From: Methylacidimicrobium fagopyrum
GTDB taxonomy: Bacteria; Verrucomicrobiota; Verrucomicrobiia; Limisphaerales; UBA11358
Reading direction: 5' to 3'
DNA: 64,000 bases
Assembly: GCA_026225255.1 (NCBI GenBank)
Contig: JAMFSJ010000036.1
Location: 1 to 64,000, forward strand
The notes beneath the pieces are model-generated. The model did no database searches, was not told the origin of the DNA, and saw only the letters and a program-made list of their open reading frames with translations. Shown here piece after piece: positions 6,458 through 23,451 of the stretch (positions within the stretch are counted from its first letter, which is position 1; every line of letters starts with the position of its first letter). A program made the translations under genes and the position numbers.

Positions 6458-7171
6458 TTACACGGCTGCTAATTTTAGAAAAGGCATCACCCGCTTTTCC
6501 AACTCGACGGCGGATAATTTCAAAACCGCATCTAACGTCAACGCGTCGGCCACGTCAAATTTACCGGAAGCACTGCGGCGCAAGGTCGTCAGATGCGCGC
6601 CGCAACCGAGTTTATTGCCTAGATCGTGCGCGAGGCTGCGGATGTAAGTGCCTTTGGTGCAGGCAACGCGGAATTTTCCAAGCGGCTCGGTGTAATCCGT
6701 GAAACGAAAATTATAGATGTGAATCAAGCGCGGTTCACGTTCCACCTCGATACCTTTACGCGCCAGCTTGTAGAGCGGCACGCCATTTTTTTTGATCGCG
6801 GAAACCATCGGCGGCACTTGCATCAAGTCGCCGATAAACGTCGCCGCTTCATTGTTCAATTCATCCAGCGTCATCGGCATCACCAGCGATGAATTCGTCA
6901 GTTCGCCATCAGAATCGTAGCTGTCGGTCGTCTCACCAAATTTGATCGTGCCTTCGTAAACCTTGTCGTCGCCCATCAAACGTTCAGACAATTTTGTGCC
7001 GCGGCCGAGCACAATAATGAGCAGACCGGTCGCATTCGGATCGAGCGTGCCGCAGTGGCCGACTTTCTTGATGCCGAATTTGCGACGAATCGCGTCCACG
7101 ACATCATGCGACGTCGGGCCGCTGGGTTTATCAACGAGAATAGCGCCGTCAAGCGCGGAGAAATCTTGCAT
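6458..7171 (-). CDS. truB: tRNA pseudouridine(55) synthase
   Basis: DGAILVDKPSGPTSHDVVDAIRRKFGIKKVGHCGTLDPNATGLLIIVLGRGTKL. Confidence 0.97.
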   Translation of the reverse strand: MQDFSALDGAILVDKPSGPTSHDVVDAIRRKFGIKKVGHCGTLDPNATGLLIIVLGRGTKLSERLMGDDKVYEGTIKFGETTDSYDSDGELTNSSLVMPMTLDELNNEAATFIGDLMQVPPMVSAIKKNGVPLYKLARKGIEVEREPRLIHIYNFRFTDYTEPLGKFRVACTKGTYIRSLAHDLGNKLGCGAHLTTLRRSASGKFDVADALTLDAVLKLSAVELEKRVMPFLKLAAV

Positions 7172-7175
7172 ATAA

Positions 7176-7967
7176 TTATTTCCAAACTTCTATCAATGCC
7201 GCACGAAACAGTTCATCCAGCTTATCGTTTTGACTTGGCAATAAAGGCTGTTCACTAGCTTGTTTCTTTAAACGCTCCAGTTCACTTTCAATAAAATTAC
7301 TAATGGCTGGAATTCTGGGTTCAAAATCCAATTCTTGCCCATCTTGTTTGCGCTTTAGCAGTGAATAGATTTCTTGCTTAAGCACGGTGGACGGGGCCAT
7401 TTTTTCAACTAGTTTTTCAAATTCCATCGGCACGGGCCCGAGCCCAGATTCAATCCACCGACAACCAAGCAAAGGGCGAAGAACGTAAAAATACTTTTTA
7501 ACACGGACATTTTCTCCGCGCAAATATTCGCGAAAGTTGCCCTCAGCCATGTGCAAGTAATGATGGAAACAATTTCGCGGCGAATAAAAATCCGGCAATA
7601 GACTCCGAAGTTTATCAGCGATAGAAAACTTTTGTTGATAAATGATGGGTGAACTTAACCATTCCAGTAAAGGTGGATTTGATTTGCGGAATAAACGAAG
7701 TGCTTTACGAATTTCCCAACCACTTAAATCAATCTCCTCTACCAACGGCCGCTCAATCACATCACGATGGTCTTCGATCGAAAGATACCAATCGCGCGGA
7801 TGAACGTAGATGAAGCGAACATCATAATCACTGTCTGCGGAAGGAAATCCCCACGCACGGCTGCCGGATTCGCAGGCATAAAGGATACAAACATTTTCCT
7901 GCCGCTCGATTTCAAGAAGCTTCTGCTGGATGTTCGATTTAATCGCTTCCGAGACCATGGAAATCAT
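7176..7967 (-). CDS. Nucleotidyltransferase of the DNA polymerase beta superfamily, RlaP/DUF2088-adjacent type (RNA-repair-associated family)
   Basis: CILYACESGSRAWGFPSADSDYDVRFIYVHPRDWYLSIEDHRDVIERPL, GSRAxG...SDYDVRF nucleotidyltransferase motif; start reset to MISMVSEAIK, overlapping the nrnA stop. Confidence 0.85.
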   Translation of the reverse strand: MISMVSEAIKSNIQQKLLEIERQENVCILYACESGSRAWGFPSADSDYDVRFIYVHPRDWYLSIEDHRDVIERPLVEEIDLSGWEIRKALRLFRKSNPPLLEWLSSPIIYQQKFSIADKLRSLLPDFYSPRNCFHHYLHMAEGNFREYLRGENVRVKKYFYVLRPLLGCRWIESGLGPVPMEFEKLVEKMAPSTVLKQEIYSLLKRKQDGQELDFEPRIPAISNFIESELERLKKQASEQPLLPSQNDKLDELFRAALIEVWK

Positions 7968-13801: not shown

Positions 13802-13922
13802 ATCTCAACTCCAGTTGCGTGAGCCTCACGCCAAACCGCGTGAACTTCACGCTTGCTGGGGAATGCCAACCGCGGATTCATTGGCAAATCGCGTTGGCAT
13901 TCGCCATGCTAAATCGAATTCC

Positions 13923-14579
13923 ATGAAACTAAATTGCTCGAATCAAAGAAACCTTGCACTGACGTTGATTGAAGTATTGGTGGTTGTTTTTGTGCTCCTC
14001 ATCCTTGTGGCCATCCTTTTGCCCGCGCCTCACAATCCTAAACGCATGGCTCAGCGAATAAATTGCGTCAATAACCTCAAAGAAATCGGCCTTTCCTATA
14101 AACTTTGGGAAGGCGATAACAACGACAAATTCCCAATGGCCGTTTCCGTGACCAACGGAGGCGCCATGGAATTAGTCGCTGCTGGAAACGTCACCACTTG
14201 TTTTCAAGTCATGTCCAACGAATTAAGCACGCCTAAAATTTTACTTTGCCCGGAAGATGCTCCGCATACGTTCGCGACCAATTTTGATACCGGCTTCACC
14301 AGTCGGAACATCAGCTACTTTGTCGGTGCGGAAGCCAACGAAACCAACGCGCAAATGTTTCTCTCGGGTGACGACAATTTTGAAATCGGTAGTGTTCCTG
14401 TGAAATCCGGCCTGCTGGAATTTCACACGAACGCGCCCATCGCTTGGTCGGCGACGCGACACAAACTTGCCGGCAATATTGGCCTTACCGATGGCTCGGT
14501 TATGCAACTCAGCCAAACCGGATTAAAAACCGCCATCGTGCAAACCGGCACCGCCACCAATCGTCTGGCCATTCCTTGA
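13923..14579 (+). CDS. Type II secretion/type IV pilin-like (pseudopilin) protein with N-terminal methylation motif
   Basis: LALTLIEVLVVVFVLLILVAILLPA; downstream DUF1559-like pattern ending in H..G.IGLTDGSV. Confidence 0.8.
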   Translation: MKLNCSNQRNLALTLIEVLVVVFVLLILVAILLPAPHNPKRMAQRINCVNNLKEIGLSYKLWEGDNNDKFPMAVSVTNGGAMELVAAGNVTTCFQVMSNELSTPKILLCPEDAPHTFATNFDTGFTSRNISYFVGAEANETNAQMFLSGDDNFEIGSVPVKSGLLEFHTNAPIAWSATRHKLAGNIGLTDGSVMQLSQTGLKTAIVQTGTATNRLAIP

Positions 14580-15627: not shown

Positions 15628-15922
15628 AAATTTTAATCTGGTTGGGCGGAACGCAATGTTCCGCCATGACTAACAGCCGCGCATGATAAAAAATTCTACG
15701 CGAAAGCAAATGAAAATTTATTCACACATTGGCGACCCACTTGATGCAAACTAATGCTGCCGCAGCGAGCCCACCGGCGCACGCCCTATCCCAGCCCACC
15801 CACGCAACGGTCAAAGTCTCGTGCGCGCCTGGTTTTTCAAACGGGAATCCGTAACTTCATTTCAAAAAAAACTTCAAAGGAACATTCGTCCACCGCCGTC
15901 TTATTCCTTAAAATGACACCGC

Positions 15923-16498
15923 ATGGTCGAAACCGATGACGAGCAACTCTGGGTGACGCGCAGCCAGAATGGCGACGAAGCGGCGTTCGCAGCGTTGATC
16001 AAAACGTATTCGACGATGATTCATTCGCTCACTTTTCGCATGACCGGTTCCACCCCCGACGCCCAAGATCTGGCGCAGGAAACGTTTGTTCGCGCGTATC
16101 AACAGCTCGCTACCTTCCACGGCACATCCAAATTTTCTTCCTGGCTCTATCGCATCGCCGTCAACGCCTGCCTCGATTGGCGACGCCGGGAAAAACGTCG
16201 TTTAGACCTGCATACGAACTGGAGCAACGAAAAGGCGAATGCCGATTCTGCGCCGGCAAACACCGCCGAATTGGACGACGTAAGCCGCGAAGTGCAAGCC
16301 GCGTTGCTGAAGTTGCCGGAAAAACAACGCGCCGCCATCACGCTCACCGTTTATGGCGAACGGAATCACGCCGAGGCCGCTGAAATTCTTGGCTGTTCCG
16401 AAACCACGATTTCGTGGCGCATCTTCAGTGCGCGCCGGAAATTGAAAAAGCTTTTGAGCGTCAAACATTTGAAAACCGACGGAGACCGCCATGACTGA
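15923..16498 (+). CDS. RNA polymerase ECF-type sigma factor
   Basis: DAQDLAQETFVRAYQQLATFHGTSKFSSWLYRIAVNACLDWRRREKRR; sigma-70 region 4 HAEAAEILGCSETTISWRIFSARRKLKKLL. Confidence 0.93.
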   Translation: MVETDDEQLWVTRSQNGDEAAFAALIKTYSTMIHSLTFRMTGSTPDAQDLAQETFVRAYQQLATFHGTSKFSSWLYRIAVNACLDWRRREKRRLDLHTNWSNEKANADSAPANTAELDDVSREVQAALLKLPEKQRAAITLTVYGERNHAEAAEILGCSETTISWRIFSARRKLKKLLSVKHLKTDGDRHD

Positions 16499-17105
16499 TT
16501 CTGAATTGGATAAAAAACTGAATGCCGCGCGCACGCCGAAACTGGCAGCGGATTACACCGCAGATTTTCCGCGCGCGGTTTTTGCGAAAGCGCGCGCCAC
16601 GCCAATCTCAAAAAACTCCACCCGCTATTCATCCGCCCCGCACTGGTGGCCGGGTTTGGTTTGGAGTGCTGGTTTTGCCCTGTTTTTTTTGATCGCCGGA
16701 TTTGGCTTGGGCCATTGGCGGGGAAAAAGTGACGTCGCGGCACCGGCGAACGAGCTCTTGGCCAACGTCAAAATGATCAAGGAAACGTTGGCGTTATTTC
16801 CCAATCGCGTCAGCGCCATCGTGCAAAACGGGCACGACGTGCAACTCGTGCTGGCCGACCGGGCGGACGTGCCCGATTCGCCGCCCCTGTTCGTAAAAAT
16901 TTGCGACGGTAAAAAATGTTCCTCACTGGTGACTTTTAGCGGACAGGAAATTGAGATCGCTGGTCAAAAAATCACCGTGCTGGCCGACGCGAACGGCGGA
17001 ATCATTTTGGAAGGCAAACAATTCGTCTGGTCGAGTGCCGGGGAAAATATTTTGTCCACCGGTTTGAAAATCGAAGCCCGCAGCCTCGCGCAATTGAAAC
17101 TGTAA
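16491..17105 (+). CDS. Putative anti-sigma factor / single-TM membrane protein
   Basis: Overlaps the 3' end of the sigma gene (translational coupling); one TM segment WWPGLVWSAGFALFFLIAGFGLGHWRG. Confidence 0.65.
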   Translation: MTDSELDKKLNAARTPKLAADYTADFPRAVFAKARATPISKNSTRYSSAPHWWPGLVWSAGFALFFLIAGFGLGHWRGKSDVAAPANELLANVKMIKETLALFPNRVSAIVQNGHDVQLVLADRADVPDSPPLFVKICDGKKCSSLVTFSGQEIEIAGQKITVLADANGGIILEGKQFVWSSAGENILSTGLKIEARSLAQLKL

Positions 17106-17124
17106 AGGTCGTAGTTATCGCCGC

Positions 17125-20100
17125 ATGAAAAAAATCCTCACGTTTTTTGCCGTTCTTTTTGCCGTTCATCAACTCGTCGCGCAGACCAATGCGCCCGCCC
17201 GCCTCGCGTTGATTTCAGAAACGGAGGACACCGCCCCGATTGCCGATCTTTTGACCGCGCAACTTTCCAGCAATCAAAACGTGCAATTACTCGAGCGCGA
17301 CCAAATCGAAAAGGTGTATCGCGAGCAGGCGTTATCCGTGGCGAATAAGGATTATCTCAAGCTCGGCCAAATTTTGGGTGCGGATGGTTTGCTGTTGCTA
17401 GAAATGGTCAAAGTCGGCACGAACCAATTTTTGAATGTCCGCTTGCTGGCCGTGAAGCCGGGCGTGGTTTTATCGGCGGAAAAATTTCCGCGGTCACCTG
17501 ACGGCCTGACTGAATGGTCCGCCACATTTGCCAAACGATTGAATTTATTTTTGCCCAAACTAACGGTGTTGCCGAAAGACGCGATCCCAATTTCCGTGGT
17601 CAATTTGCGCTCCGCGATCGCATCGGCGGACGCGGCGGAAACAGAGCGGCAATTAAAATTGCTGACCGTCCAACGCTTGAGTCAGGAGCGGCAATACTTC
17701 GTTTTGGAGCGGCAGAAAATGTCGTTACTCGGCGACGAAAAAGATTTGAAAGCCGACGACACCGCGTTTTGGAACGGCAGTTATTTGGTGGAAGGCGTCG
17801 TGGATCAAAATGGCTATTCCGAAAGCACGATCACGCTGAATGCGCGCCTGACGCCGCCACGCGGTGGCGCTCCGATCTTGCTCGTCGCGAGCGGCAGTCG
17901 CACAAATCTGGCGGAGGTCATCAATCAACTCGTAGCCAAAATAAATGGCGCATTGAAAATAAATTCTACGACGCCCGCGTGGAATGCGGCGGACGAGGCG
18001 GCGCAATATTTTAACGAAGCGAATTGGGCGATGCGCTGGGGAGCTTTCCCCGAAGCGCAGGCGGCGGCGGATTCAGCTTGGGCGCTCGGAAAACGCGATT
18101 TGGACTGCGCTTTGGTGCGGGTGAAATCGTATGTGGCGGAGGTGAATGCGACAGTTGGAAAATATCAAAGCGAGTTTGCATTTTATGATCCGCCGGGCGG
18201 TTATGATTCCAGCGGCAAACCGCGCGGTGATTTTCTGGCTGAGCGCGACGTGCAAGCGGATATAAAACGCATAGTCAAGAAGCACCCTTGGGGCATGTAT
18301 TTCAAAGAAACACACGACGAAGCGCAAATGGCCGTAGACATTCATTTTATGTTTCTGGATCGAGCCCCGAATCCAAAAAATGTGGATCGAGCGATTCACG
18401 CCTTGGAACTGTATGAGGAATTCAGCCGGACTTCGCCCGATGGGCAACCCCAAATTATTTCACACGAAGGCGCGAACAAATGGCGCAATTCAGATTGGTA
18501 TGATCTGGGCATCGAAAATTTGACGGTGGCTTCATACGTTTTGCAAAATTTCAACGCGATCCCAGAATCGCAAAAAAACGTGGCGGACAAATTAGCTGAG
18601 TTGCACGCTATGGCGAGGTCGGTGGCAGCCTTGATCGTGCAATCCGCTTCGGTGCATGACAGCTATTTCGTCGGCGACCGCATCGTCACACATGATGAAT
18701 TGGCACGCACCCTTCAAGAGACGCCGAACATTTTCCGATGCGAAGTGATTTGGGGCGGCTATTGGCAAGAAACGCCGGAAAACAGTGTTGCACTATATCG
18801 CGAGTTGATGAGCAGTCCGGTCTTCAGTTATATCCACGCCGATTTTTGGCTGCGTGACCCGCAAAACCCGCGCTTCGTGGGCTGGAACGAAACTGATCGG
18901 TTAAGACTGCCGCAAGTTTGGAATAGTTTTTTGGCGGAGCTACAATCTTCAACCAATGCCTTTTGGCCGTTGGAAGCCAAAGCTCTTGCGCTAGCTGATG
19001 CGGATGGCGGAAAAAATCGGGACCGCGGTTTCACCAACTTTTTTGCCGCGCTTATGGAAAATCATGATGCGTTGGTGAATAACAATGTGGAAGTGCTTTA
19101 TTTGGATTGGGGGCTGGATGGGAAGGTTAATTGGTTCGAGTCCACTCGGGTCGTGGATTCACTGGCAGGCATCGTATGGGGCGGCCTGCTCTTGACAGAC
19201 ACGCCAAATTCGCGGCTCTATGATTCTGAATATCGCCCCAAACTGGAGGCGATGGATCAGGAGTATTGGCGAAAAAAGGACGATCAAAAAACTGCTAGCA
19301 AAAATGCGTCCGCATTTGAAGAGCAAAAACAATTTTTGAAAACCAGCCTGCCGTTTGATTCCGAGAAGGCAAGCTTAGAATTCGATAAACACTTCTTTTT
19401 TGGCTTCAAAAATTATTCCAAAGCGCAAGCCTTGGAACTTCAACCATTGGTGGCCGCTTTCCATTCAAAATTATTGGCGCAAATGGCCGCTTTGCCACCA
19501 AGAAAACAAGGCAGGTCAAAAATCGGGCTAATGCAAATCACCGGTCTAGAAACGGCCTTGTCCAACATTGTGAATCCACCCGCCCCCAGGCCGCCTCCGG
19601 TTCATCCGCCGGAGCGCGTGGCAACGCCGATTGCTCCTGCGCCAGCGGTGCCGATGATTTACGCGCCCACCCAGGCGCCGGAAGTGCCCACCAATATCGT
19701 CGCCGTCGGGAAATTTTTCCCGATTCCACTGGCGGGCTTCATGCGTGTGGCTGGATTTGAAACGGTGGATGATTCCACCGCCATTATCACGGCGCATCAT
19801 TGGCTGGCGGGGAAATTATTGTTGAATTTTGACCGTTTGCTAGTCAGTAAAAAAAACTATGGCGGCGTCCAAGGTTCGGCCCTCGCCACGTTTGACCCGG
19901 CGACCGAACAATGGACAGTCGTCATTTGCCCCGCAGTGACCGCTGAATCGCAAAATAATTTTTATCATCGCAGCGTATTATTTCGCGGCGACTTGTTTGA
20001 TAGCGATGGCGGGCAGATCAAAAAATACAACGCACAAACCCAACGGTGGGAGGTGGTGGCCGTTTCGGATGGAAATAATTATGAACTATTCGTCATCAAT

Positions 20101-21624
20101 GAACACTTTTACGCGGCGAATAAAAATTTGATTTTTGAAATCCTCGACGGCGGCAAAAGTTCGCAAATTTTAGCCAGCACCCGGCGACAACCACCCGTTA
20201 CCACGTTGGACCTGCATGGTTTGGGCATGCCGGTTTTATTTGAAGGCCCAAATCATTCCCTGCGGGTCATCGCCGGCGACAAAATTTATTCCTGGACCGG
20301 CAATGATTGGCGGGAAGAATGTGCGGCGCCGTCCGTTTCTTCGGCCCCGGAAATTTTCACGGATGGAATTTTGTATCGCCACGCGGAATGGTCGGGTCCG
20401 CCACCGACGCTCACTTTTTTCGCCACGGCAGCCACCGCGCCTGAACTGTATCTCTGGCAAAAATCGACAGGGCTGAACTCTATGGTTAATTTCAACCCGC
20501 TCGCCGCACCGCCCGTGCCGCCGGTTTGGCAAATGCCGGCCAAATGGTTTTTTGCCGGCTTGGCGGCTGGTATTTGCGAATCCAATTTGTATCTGCTGGC
20601 GGATCAGCCCGCTGTTTCCAGGAGCACCAACAATACCTACGACAGCACGTTGCTCTGTTTTTCGCGGGGCGCACCTCTTCCGCAGAAAATCTTTTTGAAA
20701 TTTGCCGCCCCCGAAGGTCATCCACCCATGACCGGAGTCGGCCCCACCGCGCAAACCTATTTTTCCGGCCCGACGACAACCTGGATGCTGGCCACGACCA
20801 ACTTAATTTTATTGGGCACCGAACATCTGAGATATAGTCCCGACTACGGAAATAATCAAAATGTGCGTGGCCACCAAACCGGCGTCTGGCTGCTGCCGAC
20901 CGCCCAACTCGCACCCATGATTGCCGAACAAAAAGCCGCCCAACTTGCACAGGCAACTGCGGCGGTGGCCGACGGCAAACAAGCGGCCAAAAATCTCTTC
21001 AATAAATTTGATCTCAATCACAACGGCGTCATTGACCCGGACGAACGCGCGGCGGCGTTGGACGATCCCGCATTCATCGCCTCGCAACTGGACGTGATTG
21101 ACGCGAATCACAACGGCCAGATTGATTTGGCCGAGCTAACCTATTTCGACGCGAATCAAAATAAAATGCTCGAACCCAAAGAACAGGCCGGTCTGGAAAT
21201 TGCCCAACATCTGCTCGCCGAAAAGGCGATGCAAACATTCGATGTGGACGGCGACGGACTTTTAGACCAAGGCGAGTTTGCCGGCTTGTGGAACGCCGGA
21301 TTCAAAAGTGATTCGAAATCTTTTTACAATGCCAGTTTGTTTTATGTGGCATACGATAAAAACCACGATCAGAAAGTGGACCTTGCCGAATTGGAATCTT
21401 TTTTGAAGCAACTGCTACAGCAAAAAGTGCAACCACCCGGACGGAATGCCGGCGGTTTTCCCTTTCAAATACAATCGCAATTTCATCGCGCAGAAGAGGA
21501 CCGCTCGGATTTCAAATTTGATGTTGAAGCCTATTGGAAAAATCCTGACCTGCTGACTAATGGCCCCGCGATTCATCGGCGGGTGGTTCCAAACGCGATT
21601 TCCAGCCAGAACAGGGCACCATGA
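17125..21624 (+). CDS. Very large secreted protein: CsgG-like N-terminal region, long middle region, C-terminal EF-hand repeats
   Basis: Signal peptide MKKILTFFAVLFAVHQLVAQ; LLTAQLSSNQNVQLLERDQIEKVYREQALS...ILGADGLLLLEMV; EF-hand loops FDLNHNGVIDPDE, IDANHNGQIDLAE, FDVDGDGLLDQGE, YDKNHDQKVDLAE. Confidence 0.8.
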   Translation: MKKILTFFAVLFAVHQLVAQTNAPARLALISETEDTAPIADLLTAQLSSNQNVQLLERDQIEKVYREQALSVANKDYLKLGQILGADGLLLLEMVKVGTNQFLNVRLLAVKPGVVLSAEKFPRSPDGLTEWSATFAKRLNLFLPKLTVLPKDAIPISVVNLRSAIASADAAETERQLKLLTVQRLSQERQYFVLERQKMSLLGDEKDLKADDTAFWNGSYLVEGVVDQNGYSESTITLNARLTPPRGGAPILLVASGSRTNLAEVINQLVAKINGALKINSTTPAWNAADEAAQYFNEANWAMRWGAFPEAQAAADSAWALGKRDLDCALVRVKSYVAEVNATVGKYQSEFAFYDPPGGYDSSGKPRGDFLAERDVQADIKRIVKKHPWGMYFKETHDEAQMAVDIHFMFLDRAPNPKNVDRAIHALELYEEFSRTSPDGQPQIISHEGANKWRNSDWYDLGIENLTVASYVLQNFNAIPESQKNVADKLAELHAMARSVAALIVQSASVHDSYFVGDRIVTHDELARTLQETPNIFRCEVIWGGYWQETPENSVALYRELMSSPVFSYIHADFWLRDPQNPRFVGWNETDRLRLPQVWNSFLAELQSSTNAFWPLEAKALALADADGGKNRDRGFTNFFAALMENHDALVNNNVEVLYLDWGLDGKVNWFESTRVVDSLAGIVWGGLLLTDTPNSRLYDSEYRPKLEAMDQEYWRKKDDQKTASKNASAFEEQKQFLKTSLPFDSEKASLEFDKHFFFGFKNYSKAQALELQPLVAAFHSKLLAQMAALPPRKQGRSKIGLMQITGLETALSNIVNPPAPRPPPVHPPERVATPIAPAPAVPMIYAPTQAPEVPTNIVAVGKFFPIPLAGFMRVAGFETVDDSTAIITAHHWLAGKLLLNFDRLLVSKKNYGGVQGSALATFDPATEQWTVVICPAVTAESQNNFYHRSVLFRGDLFDSDGGQIKKYNAQTQRWEVVAVSDGNNYELFVINEHFYAANKNLIFEILDGGKSSQILASTRRQPPVTTLDLHGLGMPVLFEGPNHSLRVIAGDKIYSWTGNDWREECAAPSVSSAPEIFTDGILYRHAEWSGPPPTLTFFATAATAPELYLWQKSTGLNSMVNFNPLAAPPVPPVWQMPAKWFFAGLAAGICESNLYLLADQPAVSRSTNNTYDSTLLCFSRGAPLPQKIFLKFAAPEGHPPMTGVGPTAQTYFSGPTTTWMLATTNLILLGTEHLRYSPDYGNNQNVRGHQTGVWLLPTAQLAPMIAEQKAAQLAQATAAVADGKQAAKNLFNKFDLNHNGVIDPDERAAALDDPAFIASQLDVIDANHNGQIDLAELTYFDANQNKMLEPKEQAGLEIAQHLLAEKAMQTFDVDGDGLLDQGEFAGLWNAGFKSDSKSFYNASLFYVAYDKNHDQKVDLAELESFLKQLLQQKVQPPGRNAGGFPFQIQSQFHRAEEDRSDFKFDVEAYWKNPDLLTNGPAIHRRVVPNAISSQNRAP

Positions 21625-21671
21625 ACCTCGTGAATTTTCAAAGGCGCGATCGTTCCACATCGTCTTAATGA

Positions 21672-22511
21672 TTGATAATGAAATGTTGGCTGACATGGCT
21701 GTTGCTGGCGAGTTGCGCGATGAGCGCGGCCAACGCCCAACTGGAACTCGTGCCGGACGCGCAGACACCGTGCGTGTTTGGCGGCGCAACGCAGAAGATT
21801 ACTGTCGTCTGGCGCAATGACGGCGGGCAAATAACGAATGCGGAAATTCGCACGCAGATTTTTCAGACGACTTCGGCCACGACGGTTTTGCTGGCGGATG
21901 TGGCGTGGAAAAAACTGTCGGTGTTGCCGGCGCAAACTGTAATCGAATCGAAGTCGCTAGAATTTCCGGCGGTGAAAGCGGAGACTAAATTTCTCGTGCA
22001 ATGGATGGTGGCCACAAATCAAATTCTGGGGGTAACCGAAGTGTTCGTTTACCCAACGAATCTGCTGGCGGAATTGAAACCGCTCGCGGGCGAAGGCGCG
22101 ATCGGTTTGTTCGATCCGCAGAATCAATTAAAGCCGTTGTTGAAAAATCTGGGTGTAGATTTTGTGGATTTGGAAAGTTCCGGACTGGAAGTTTTTTCCG
22201 GCAAGCTTGCGGTTGTCGGTCCGTTTGAATCGCGCGCACAGCTGCGCGCCAGCCTGATGGCGCAGTTGGAATTGGCGGCCAAACGGGGCATAAATAGTGT
22301 GTGGTTATTACCCAGGACGGATCGTTCGGCAAAACTATTGCCCTCGTTTTATGCCGTGGCGGAGAAGACCAATTCCATCGTCGTCGTCCAGCCGGAGTTG
22401 GTGGCGGATTTGCCGGACAATCCGTCATCACAACGCAATTTGATTTATTTTTGCAAACTGGCGTTGTCGCCGTCGCCGCCAGCTTTGCCCAATTTGGCAG
22501 CGCAACCTTGA
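21672..22511 (+). CDS. Secreted protein of unknown function
   Basis: Signal peptide MIMKCWLTWLLLASCAMSAANAQ; no family recognised; lies between two CsgG-like genes. Confidence 0.7.
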   Translation: MIMKCWLTWLLLASCAMSAANAQLELVPDAQTPCVFGGATQKITVVWRNDGGQITNAEIRTQIFQTTSATTVLLADVAWKKLSVLPAQTVIESKSLEFPAVKAETKFLVQWMVATNQILGVTEVFVYPTNLLAELKPLAGEGAIGLFDPQNQLKPLLKNLGVDFVDLESSGLEVFSGKLAVVGPFESRAQLRASLMAQLELAAKRGINSVWLLPRTDRSAKLLPSFYAVAEKTNSIVVVQPELVADLPDNPSSQRNLIYFCKLALSPSPPALPNLAAQP

Positions 22512-22521
22512 ATTAAAAATT

Positions 22522-23451
22522 ATGAAAACATTTCTAAAATTAACCGTGTTCGCCGCGCTGATTTTTTCCGCCGGAAAAATAGTCGCCGCCGAGGAAGCTT
22601 TAACCGTGGCCGTCTTTGATTTCGTCTCACCCGATGATGCGGTCCACGATCTCGGCCCGAAAGTTGCCGCGCTCGTGAATGCCAATTTGTCCGCCGAGCC
22701 GAACCTTGTCATGGTCGAGCGCGCGGAATTAGACAAGGCGTTGGGCGAACAGGAACTGGGTTTGTCCGGCACGGTCTCGCCGGAGAGCGCGGCGAAAGTC
22801 GGCCATTTGACGGGCGCAAAAGTGTTGGTCACCGGTCGCGTGTTTGCCGTAGATAATCAGACGATCATCGTCGCGAAAGTCATCGGCACCGAAACCAGCC
22901 GCGTCTACGGCGAGGTGGTCAATGGCAAACCAAACTCCACCATCACCGCGCTGGCAACGGAACTGGCCAAAAAAATCGCCGCCGATGTGACGCAGAAAAG
23001 CGACACGCTGATCGCCAAAGTGGAGTCGCGCGACGACCGTATCGCCAAAATCAAAAAGCAGCTCGACGGCAAAAAGCTGCCGGTCGTTTCCGTGATAATT
23101 ACCGAGCAACATATTGGCCAGCATGTCATTGATCCGGCAGCGCAAACGGAATTATCGCTCATTTTGCAGCAATGTGGTTTCACGGTAGTGGACGAACTTT
23201 CCACGAACAAAGCCGACGTGGAAATCACGGGCGAAGCGTTCAGCGAATTTGGTTTGCGCAAAGGCAATCTGCAAAGCTGCCGCGCGCGGATCGAACTCAA
23301 AGCGCGCAACGTGGCGAGCGGCGCGGTTCTCATCGTGGATCGCCAAACCAGTGTCGCGGTGGATATCGCCGAGCACGTGGCGGCGAAGTCAGCGTTGCAA
23401 AACGGCGCGGGCGAACTGGCGGAACGGGTAATTCCCCAATTGATAAAATGA
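22522..23451 (+). CDS. CsgG-like secreted/periplasmic protein
   Basis: LTVAVFDFVSPDDAVHDLGPKVAALVNANLSAEPNLVMVERAELDKALGEQELGLSG...LTGAKVLVTGRVF. Confidence 0.75.
   Translation: MKTFLKLTVFAALIFSAGKIVAAEEALTVAVFDFVSPDDAVHDLGPKVAALVNANLSAEPNLVMVERAELDKALGEQELGLSGTVSPESAAKVGHLTGAKVLVTGRVFAVDNQTIIVAKVIGTETSRVYGEVVNGKPNSTITALATELAKKIAADVTQKSDTLIAKVESRDDRIAKIKKQLDGKKLPVVSVIITEQHIGQHVIDPAAQTELSLILQQCGFTVVDELSTNKADVEITGEAFSEFGLRKGNLQSCRARIELKARNVASGAVLIVDRQTSVAVDIAEHVAAKSALQNGAGELAERVIPQLIK

Follow-up and report, generated by a model that had tools for sequence, protein, structure and literature searches.

A PVC-wide ECF sigma/anti-sigma gene set with exported CsgG/TolB_N-fold proteins: a candidate cell-envelope module in Methylacidimicrobium fagopyrum

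The locus lies in a window of 64,000 nucleotides, the whole stretch of DNA analysed, from a Methylacidimicrobium fagopyrum MAG of 3.9 Mb that is 86% complete. Five open reading frames, all on the plus strand, were found in the ORF list within positions 15923-23451, and are referred to here as SIG, ANT, BIG, MID and CSG (Table 1). The reading frames of SIG and ANT share 8 nt, and the gaps ANT-BIG, BIG-MID and MID-CSG are 19, 53 and 10 nt long; the five same-strand genes with short gaps of the original prediction were thus all confirmed at their coordinates. For MID, the ATG at 21678, which yields 277 aa, is more likely to be the start than that of the 279-aa open reading frame. MID, CSG and BIG are predicted to be exported by N-terminal signal sequences, as judged from their N-terminal hydrophobic segments. 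Elsewhere in the window (13815-14579), a protein with a type IV pilin-like N-terminal methylation motif, its match just below the cut-off, is encoded just upstream of an aldolase-type gene on the other strand.

Table 1. Features of the sigma/anti-sigma locus, in window coordinates.
Feature	Position	Strand	Remarks
ECF-type promoter (predicted)	15874..15904	+	-35 TCAAAGGA at 15874-15881, 16-nt spacer, -10 GTCTTAT at 15898-15904
SIG, ECF sigma factor, 191 aa	15923..16498	+	Pfam Sigma70_r2, Sigma70_r4_2; position kept in relatives
ANT, putative anti-sigma factor, 204 aa	16491..17105	+	One TM segment (~56-74), conserved periplasmic domain, overlap with SIG
BIG, exported (predicted), 1499 aa	17125..21624	+	N-terminal CsgG-like region, helical middle, probable Kelch-like propeller, EF-hand tail
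CsgG-family domain match within BIG, residues 13-91	17161..17397	+	Pfam
Five EF-hand-type loops in BIG, residues 1296-1422	21010..21390	+	Lineage-specific
MID, exported (predicted), 277 aa	21678..22511	+	FN3/Ig-like sandwich (22-125) and alpha/beta domain (129-263)
CSG, exported (predicted), 309 aa	22522..23451	+	Two tandem CsgG/TolB_N-like alpha/beta domains (27-158, 188-308)

SIG matched the Pfam families Sigma70_r2 (6.2e-21) and Sigma70_r4_2 (1.9e-13) and, above its cut-off, TIGR02937 of NCBIfam. Its domain content, sigma2 and sigma4 only, fits an ECF sigma factor, as had been read from the sequence earlier, and the protein may already belong to one of the numbered ECF groups. The overlapping ANT gene encodes a single TM segment near residue 56, in agreement with its earlier description as a single-TM, putative anti-sigma protein. 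Such a segment was found in all 51 ANT relatives adjoining SIG, 38 of which displayed an excess of K/R on its N side, and the predicted architecture (a gene adjoining that of the sigma factor, one TM helix, N-terminus inside) matches the layout of transmembrane anti-sigma factors. A search of Pfam with ANT gave no family match and no FecR-type domain, and that of NCBIfam only a weak antisigma match (E 0.013); the HxxxCxxC zinc motif was present in two of the 51 relatives and absent from 49. The periplasmic domain of ANT is strongly conserved.

CSG and BIG both matched the Pfam family CsgG above its cut-off (7.8e-10 and 3.8e-8, respectively), over just ~70-80 of the 210 family positions, and no other matches to this family were found in the whole 3.9-Mb MAG. 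The AlphaFold2 model of CSG (pLDDT 83.5, pTM 0.55) consists of a tandem pair of CsgG/TolB_N-type alpha/beta domains; in view of these two scores the domains can be regarded as confident and their relative placement cannot. When the model was used as a Foldseek query, the CsgG pre-pore was the top match, followed at similar E-values by FlgT, LpoB, TolB, PelC, GNA1162 and LptE, all with the low TM-scores that matches to a single domain would give. Searches with CSG relatives gave weak matches to LpoB, TolB_N and FlgO, that to TolB_N in four of 20 relatives; no member of the TolB_N family was found in the MAG (86% complete) at E<=0.001, and PDB sequence searches with CSG returned no informative relative. 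The CsgG-like character of the two proteins, as originally proposed, is thereby upheld, for CSG also at the level of the fold: CSG is a tandem of CsgG/TolB_N/LpoB/FlgT-fold domains, and not a CsgG pore. The gene is found in tandem arrays of up to five paralogues (L051, L055 and L057). In two of these, at L051:4945-11393 and L055:1122-4934, four to five paralogues stand in a row, of which one per array is 67-69% identical to the window CSG and the others ~40%. A separate observation concerns L053 and L054, two loci from two genomes of the genus that look near-identical across many genes. Each encodes a protein of 155 aa (L053:7975-8442, L054:9165-9632) next to a CsgG-like giant of 1138 aa; the C-terminal part of the 155-aa protein shares 65% identity with residues 200-309 of CSG (the second domain only).

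The N-terminal signature which BIG had been said to have in common with CSG was recovered by hhalign, in which residues 1-342 of BIG aligned to CSG over 113 columns (probability 96.7, E 3.7e-10). Beyond this CsgG-like start the protein would continue into a helical middle and a probable Kelch-like propeller; BIG relatives match TPR, and their Kelch matches are weak and below the cut-off, as is the weak Kelch match of BIG itself (0.0013) in Pfam. EF-hands were matched at 2.9e-16, and PDB sequence searches with BIG returned EF-hand proteins only. A strict EF-loop pattern was present in just seven of 58 BIG-family proteins, and the relatives with EF-hands are mostly of the window's lineage; the EF-hands are a lineage-specific tail and calcium sensing is therefore not the core of the system, contrary to the calcium-responsive function once suggested for it. 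Two further candidates were discarded: matches of BIG to XopAW and lanmodulin fell below their own cut-offs and rested on the EF-hands alone, and a PelB-like outer-membrane barrel was dropped, as an aromatic residue is hardly ever found at the C-terminal end of a BIG protein. A scan of the genome contigs with the single BIG sequence found nothing because BIG diverges too fast; CSG is the useful bait.

MID, originally described as a 279-aa protein of no recognised family, indeed matched nothing above cut-off in the family databases; its resemblance to Tsi1 (E 0.019, ~37 residues spanned) was below the cut-off and was rejected, and one relative had matches to LacZ_4 and DUF4350, both below the cut-off as well. 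No full-length match was found in the PDB, and sequence searches of that database with MID and with ANT gave no informative relative. The AlphaFold2 model (pLDDT 91.2, pTM 0.84) shows a beta-sandwich followed by an alpha/beta domain, and an iterated profile unites 42 positional homologues of the protein.

The distribution of the gene set was examined by a scan with the CSG alignment of 84,980 species genomes, which yielded 102 confirmed loci, 80 of which were kept. The order SIG-ANT-(BIG)-MID-CSG recurs repeatedly within the genus and the order, and 73 of the 74 kept loci with a named phylum belong to the PVC group (46 Verrucomicrobiota, 14 Planctomycetota, seven Lentisphaerota, four Kiritimatiellota and two Auribacterota); two Rhodopirellula isolates and the Kiritimatiellaeota strain B1221 are among the carriers, MID-CSG-BIG being present in Rhodopirellula sp. 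and in B1221, and SIG in B1221 as well. The single locus outside this group (L099) comes from a bin labelled Gammaproteobacteria, Woeseiaceae bacterium GLR87, and holds a SIG-ANT-MID-CSG-BIG-like set on a long branch, which represents either contamination of the bin or a transfer. In a sample drawn evenly across the phylum, CSG was detected at E<=1e-20 in 45 of 289 genomes; the module is therefore not essential to the phylum.

Six-frame HMM searches were carried out around the 39 CSG loci of this phylum sample with at least 4 kb upstream, BIG being counted at the 36 with both flanks. SIG was found near CSG at 28 of the 39 loci (and was not found at 11), ANT at 26, MID at 19, and BIG at 27 of 36. 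In the genome-contig set, which has at least 13 loci in common with the phylum sample so that the two are not independent, the corresponding figures were 32/53, 31/53, 47/53 and 31/38. The SIG, ANT and MID profiles were iterated on sequences of the counted loci themselves, and candidates for the ANT and MID profiles were picked by position, so that these counts lean towards finding ANT and MID in place. The strand and position control for SIG is less affected, since one profile was applied on all sides: a SIG gene was found on the same strand within 5 kb upstream of CSG in 16 of 34 cases (genome-contig set) and 22 of 36 (phylum sample), compared with 0/34 and 0/36 at control positions, downstream or on the opposite strand. 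Co-occurrence of the five genes elsewhere is thus borne out, in relatives as well as in other phyla. The five-gene set is a real unit; the conserved set is nevertheless wider and slightly different from the one first described, as BIG is absent, split or relocated at some loci (L051, L055 and L057, all with CSG arrays, keep SIG-ANT-MID-CSG without it) and CSG is often duplicated in tandem.

The original prediction had named an ECF promoter upstream of 15923 as a feature to look for. A generic sigma-70 scan before SIG found no promoter. Comparison of related loci uncovered a bipartite motif, [T/C]C[A/C]AAGG[A/T] with GTC at a constant spacing after it, upstream of SIG in all 21 non-identical close loci; for the -35 part of this motif, shuffled controls gave a mean of 0.36 and a maximum of three. 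In the window its form is TCAAAGGA-N16-GTCTTAT, at 15874-15904, the sole match in the window, with 0 expected by chance. A different form of the motif, CAAAGA-N16/17-GTCTAA, was found in the distant phyla. It had 23 matches among 120 loci, 17 of them distinct once duplicates had been removed by hand and all at genes of the system (13 at SIG, two at MID, one at BIG and one at ANT), and no match on the reversed sequence of the same 120 loci. Seven of the 17 sites had been used to define the motif; the other ten played no part in its definition. Four genus members have a second copy of the motif, placed either in front of a CSG gene or in the stretch that separates ANT from MID, and copies before BIG, MID or CSG link BIG and MID with the sigma factor also at loci where the genes do not form one transcript. 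From its motif, spacing and position, the site upstream of SIG is predicted to be a dedicated, autoregulatory promoter of the ECF type with a GTC -10 element, common to the close loci and the distant phyla.

Searches of whole genomes, conducted without mismatches, returned few further sites. The Kiritimatiellae genome of L108 has just two distant-form sites in 3.0 Mb, one before BIG and one before SIG, and the distant species searched in this manner have 0-2 sites per genome. In the whole MAG, the TCAAAGGA-N16-GTC core occurs at four sites: one is the predicted SIG promoter of the window, two lie on contig 57 (G000:C57) and one, which is ambiguous, on contig 4. Those on contig 57 (L143:6489-6515 and 6891-6917) are ~400 bp apart, one before a pseudopilin-like open reading frame and one before a paralogous ECF sigma gene (L143 ~6940-7488) that stands beside GspE/GspF-type and pseudopilin genes; SIG and this paralogous sigma factor may share one promoter type. 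The site on contig 4 (G000:C4:82682-82708, L144:4683) precedes an FHA-domain gene and was tried as a further target. The last part of a coding frame (FSKD*), also conserved in a relative, runs into this site, and the conservation of the site may therefore stem from the protein code. Across the genus, the bare core pattern was just moderately more frequent than in a reversed control, and the argument therefore rests on the position of the motif before the system's genes and not on its raw count.

The conserved core of the system is formed by the sigma factor, the anti-sigma factor, MID, CSG and BIG. We consider it rather probable that these make up a self-contained cell-envelope module of PVC bacteria, built around an ECF sigma/anti-sigma pair and autoregulated. 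At rest, the membrane-spanning ANT would hold SIG; a signal on the periplasmic side would alter or destroy ANT, and the freed SIG would transcribe its own operon from the promoter predicted by motif, spacing and position. The folds and the gene linkage suggest that MID, CSG and BIG, once exported, come together in the periplasm, probably on the inner side of the outer membrane, to form a scaffold or adaptor complex of CsgG/TolB_N-fold domains, in which MID would bind a ligand or another protein and BIG would serve as a large TPR/propeller scaffold. This complex might repair or monitor the envelope and could also act back on ANT; we infer a role in envelope stress or maintenance. As a more specific and clearly tentative proposal, CSG subunits (often in paralogous arrays), the two-domain adaptor MID and the giant CsgG/TPR/propeller protein BIG could be one PVC-specific outer-membrane/periplasm machine, activated by a sigma factor that is dedicated to it.

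Several other readings were weighed against this one. That the five genes are merely chance neighbours, a suspicion to which the loci with a missing, split or moved BIG lend some colour, is refuted by the conserved order across many families and phyla, the strict strand and position control and the common promoter, and is given practically no credence. Another possibility is that CSG and BIG are working outer-membrane channels of the CsgG type, and that the operon serves a curli-like (type VIII) export of another substrate. With the CsgG curli secretion lipoprotein (PF03783; PDB 4uv2, 4uv3) CSG shares the core alpha/beta fold, the Pfam match, which BIG has too, and an N-terminal export signal, and the CsgG pre-pore leads its Foldseek matches, although the six other proteins named above match about as well. 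CsgG, however, has one such domain and CSG two in tandem. A lipobox-like pattern was detected in just 6 of 119 CSG and 3 of 85 BIG proteins, where it is mostly spurious, and in none of the window proteins. In the predicted secondary structure of CSG the plain domain order runs twice, with no extra transmembrane beta-hairpins such as form the 36-strand barrel of CsgG, and the model would leave no room for the two that CsgG has. Curli subunit genes (CsgA/B/E/F) had already been reported as not visible; CsgF and curlin repeats (Curlin_rpt), the two partners searched for, proved absent from the whole MAG (86% complete). We regard such a channel as improbable, and the secretion through CsgG once proposed is not supported, as neither lipobox nor hairpins nor the tested curli partners were found. 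Taken together, the EF-hand and CsgG labels do not carry the weight of a 'calcium-responsive secretion' reading.

An envelope-integrity system akin to that of TolB, in which the CsgG/TolB_N-fold domains and the BIG propeller anchor the outer membrane to the cell wall and are produced in larger amounts, through the sigma factor, under envelope stress, appears unlikely, though better placed than a channel. TolB is composed of a TolB_N domain and a beta-propeller, and BIG has a CsgG/TolB_N-like domain and a probable propeller in one protein. The weak TolB_N matches of four CSG relatives, the place of TolB among the Foldseek matches, the weak Kelch matches of BIG relatives and the lack of a TolB_N family match in the MAG all fit this proposal. 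BIG is, however, more than three times as long as TolB, contains helical repeats and is encoded in a sigma/anti-sigma operon; the propeller is backed by below-cut-off Kelch matches alone, Tol-Pal has no counterpart of MID, and the absence of TolB was read from a MAG that is 86% complete. Alternatively, BIG, MID and CSG could be the signal input, a cell-surface sensing complex of the FecA-FecR-FecI type that responds to a ligand by triggering ANT; the sigma factor would then have its real targets elsewhere. The beta-sandwich of MID is of a kind found beside glycoside hydrolases, propeller/TPR proteins are common as binding scaffolds, the periplasmic domain of ANT is strongly conserved, and a paralogous sigma gene and a pseudopilin open reading frame in the genome carry the same motif. 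Almost no further targets were recovered, however (four sites in the MAG and 0-2 per distant genome, without mismatches), and ANT has no FecR-type domain in Pfam; we hold this reading to be unlikely.

The autoregulated envelope module that we favour also differs from the other proteins that share its folds. FlgT/FlgO, LpoB, PelC, GNA1162, LptE and the TolB N-domain display the same small alpha/beta fold in periplasmic or outer-membrane-associated proteins, but the operon contains no flagellar, penicillin-binding-protein, Pel or Lpt genes, and sequence matches to this fold group are weak or absent. With known pairs of ECF sigma factors and transmembrane anti-sigma factors the locus has in common the overlapping genes for the sigma factor and its TM partner and a predicted bipartite promoter, autoregulatory and with GTC in its -10 element; it differs from them in that ANT belongs to no known anti-sigma family above cut-off and in that no published description was found for the downstream gene set. 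The open PMC full-text literature yielded no description of the operon, the key ECF classification papers being outside that search. The sigma/anti-sigma circuit is of a known kind, and the PVC-wide envelope gene set attached to it is apparently undescribed in the open literature searched. The sigma-regulated, undescribed envelope system of the original prediction is therefore supported, by co-occurrence, by the CsgG-like folds and by the predicted ECF-type promoter.

Little of the envelope biology of the Verrucomicrobiota, Planctomycetota and their relatives has been mapped. An operon that runs this deep through the PVC group, with one sigma factor, one near-unique predicted promoter and three proteins predicted to be exported, offers a testable entry into it, and 'CsgG' annotations in PVC phyla should not be taken as curli secretion.
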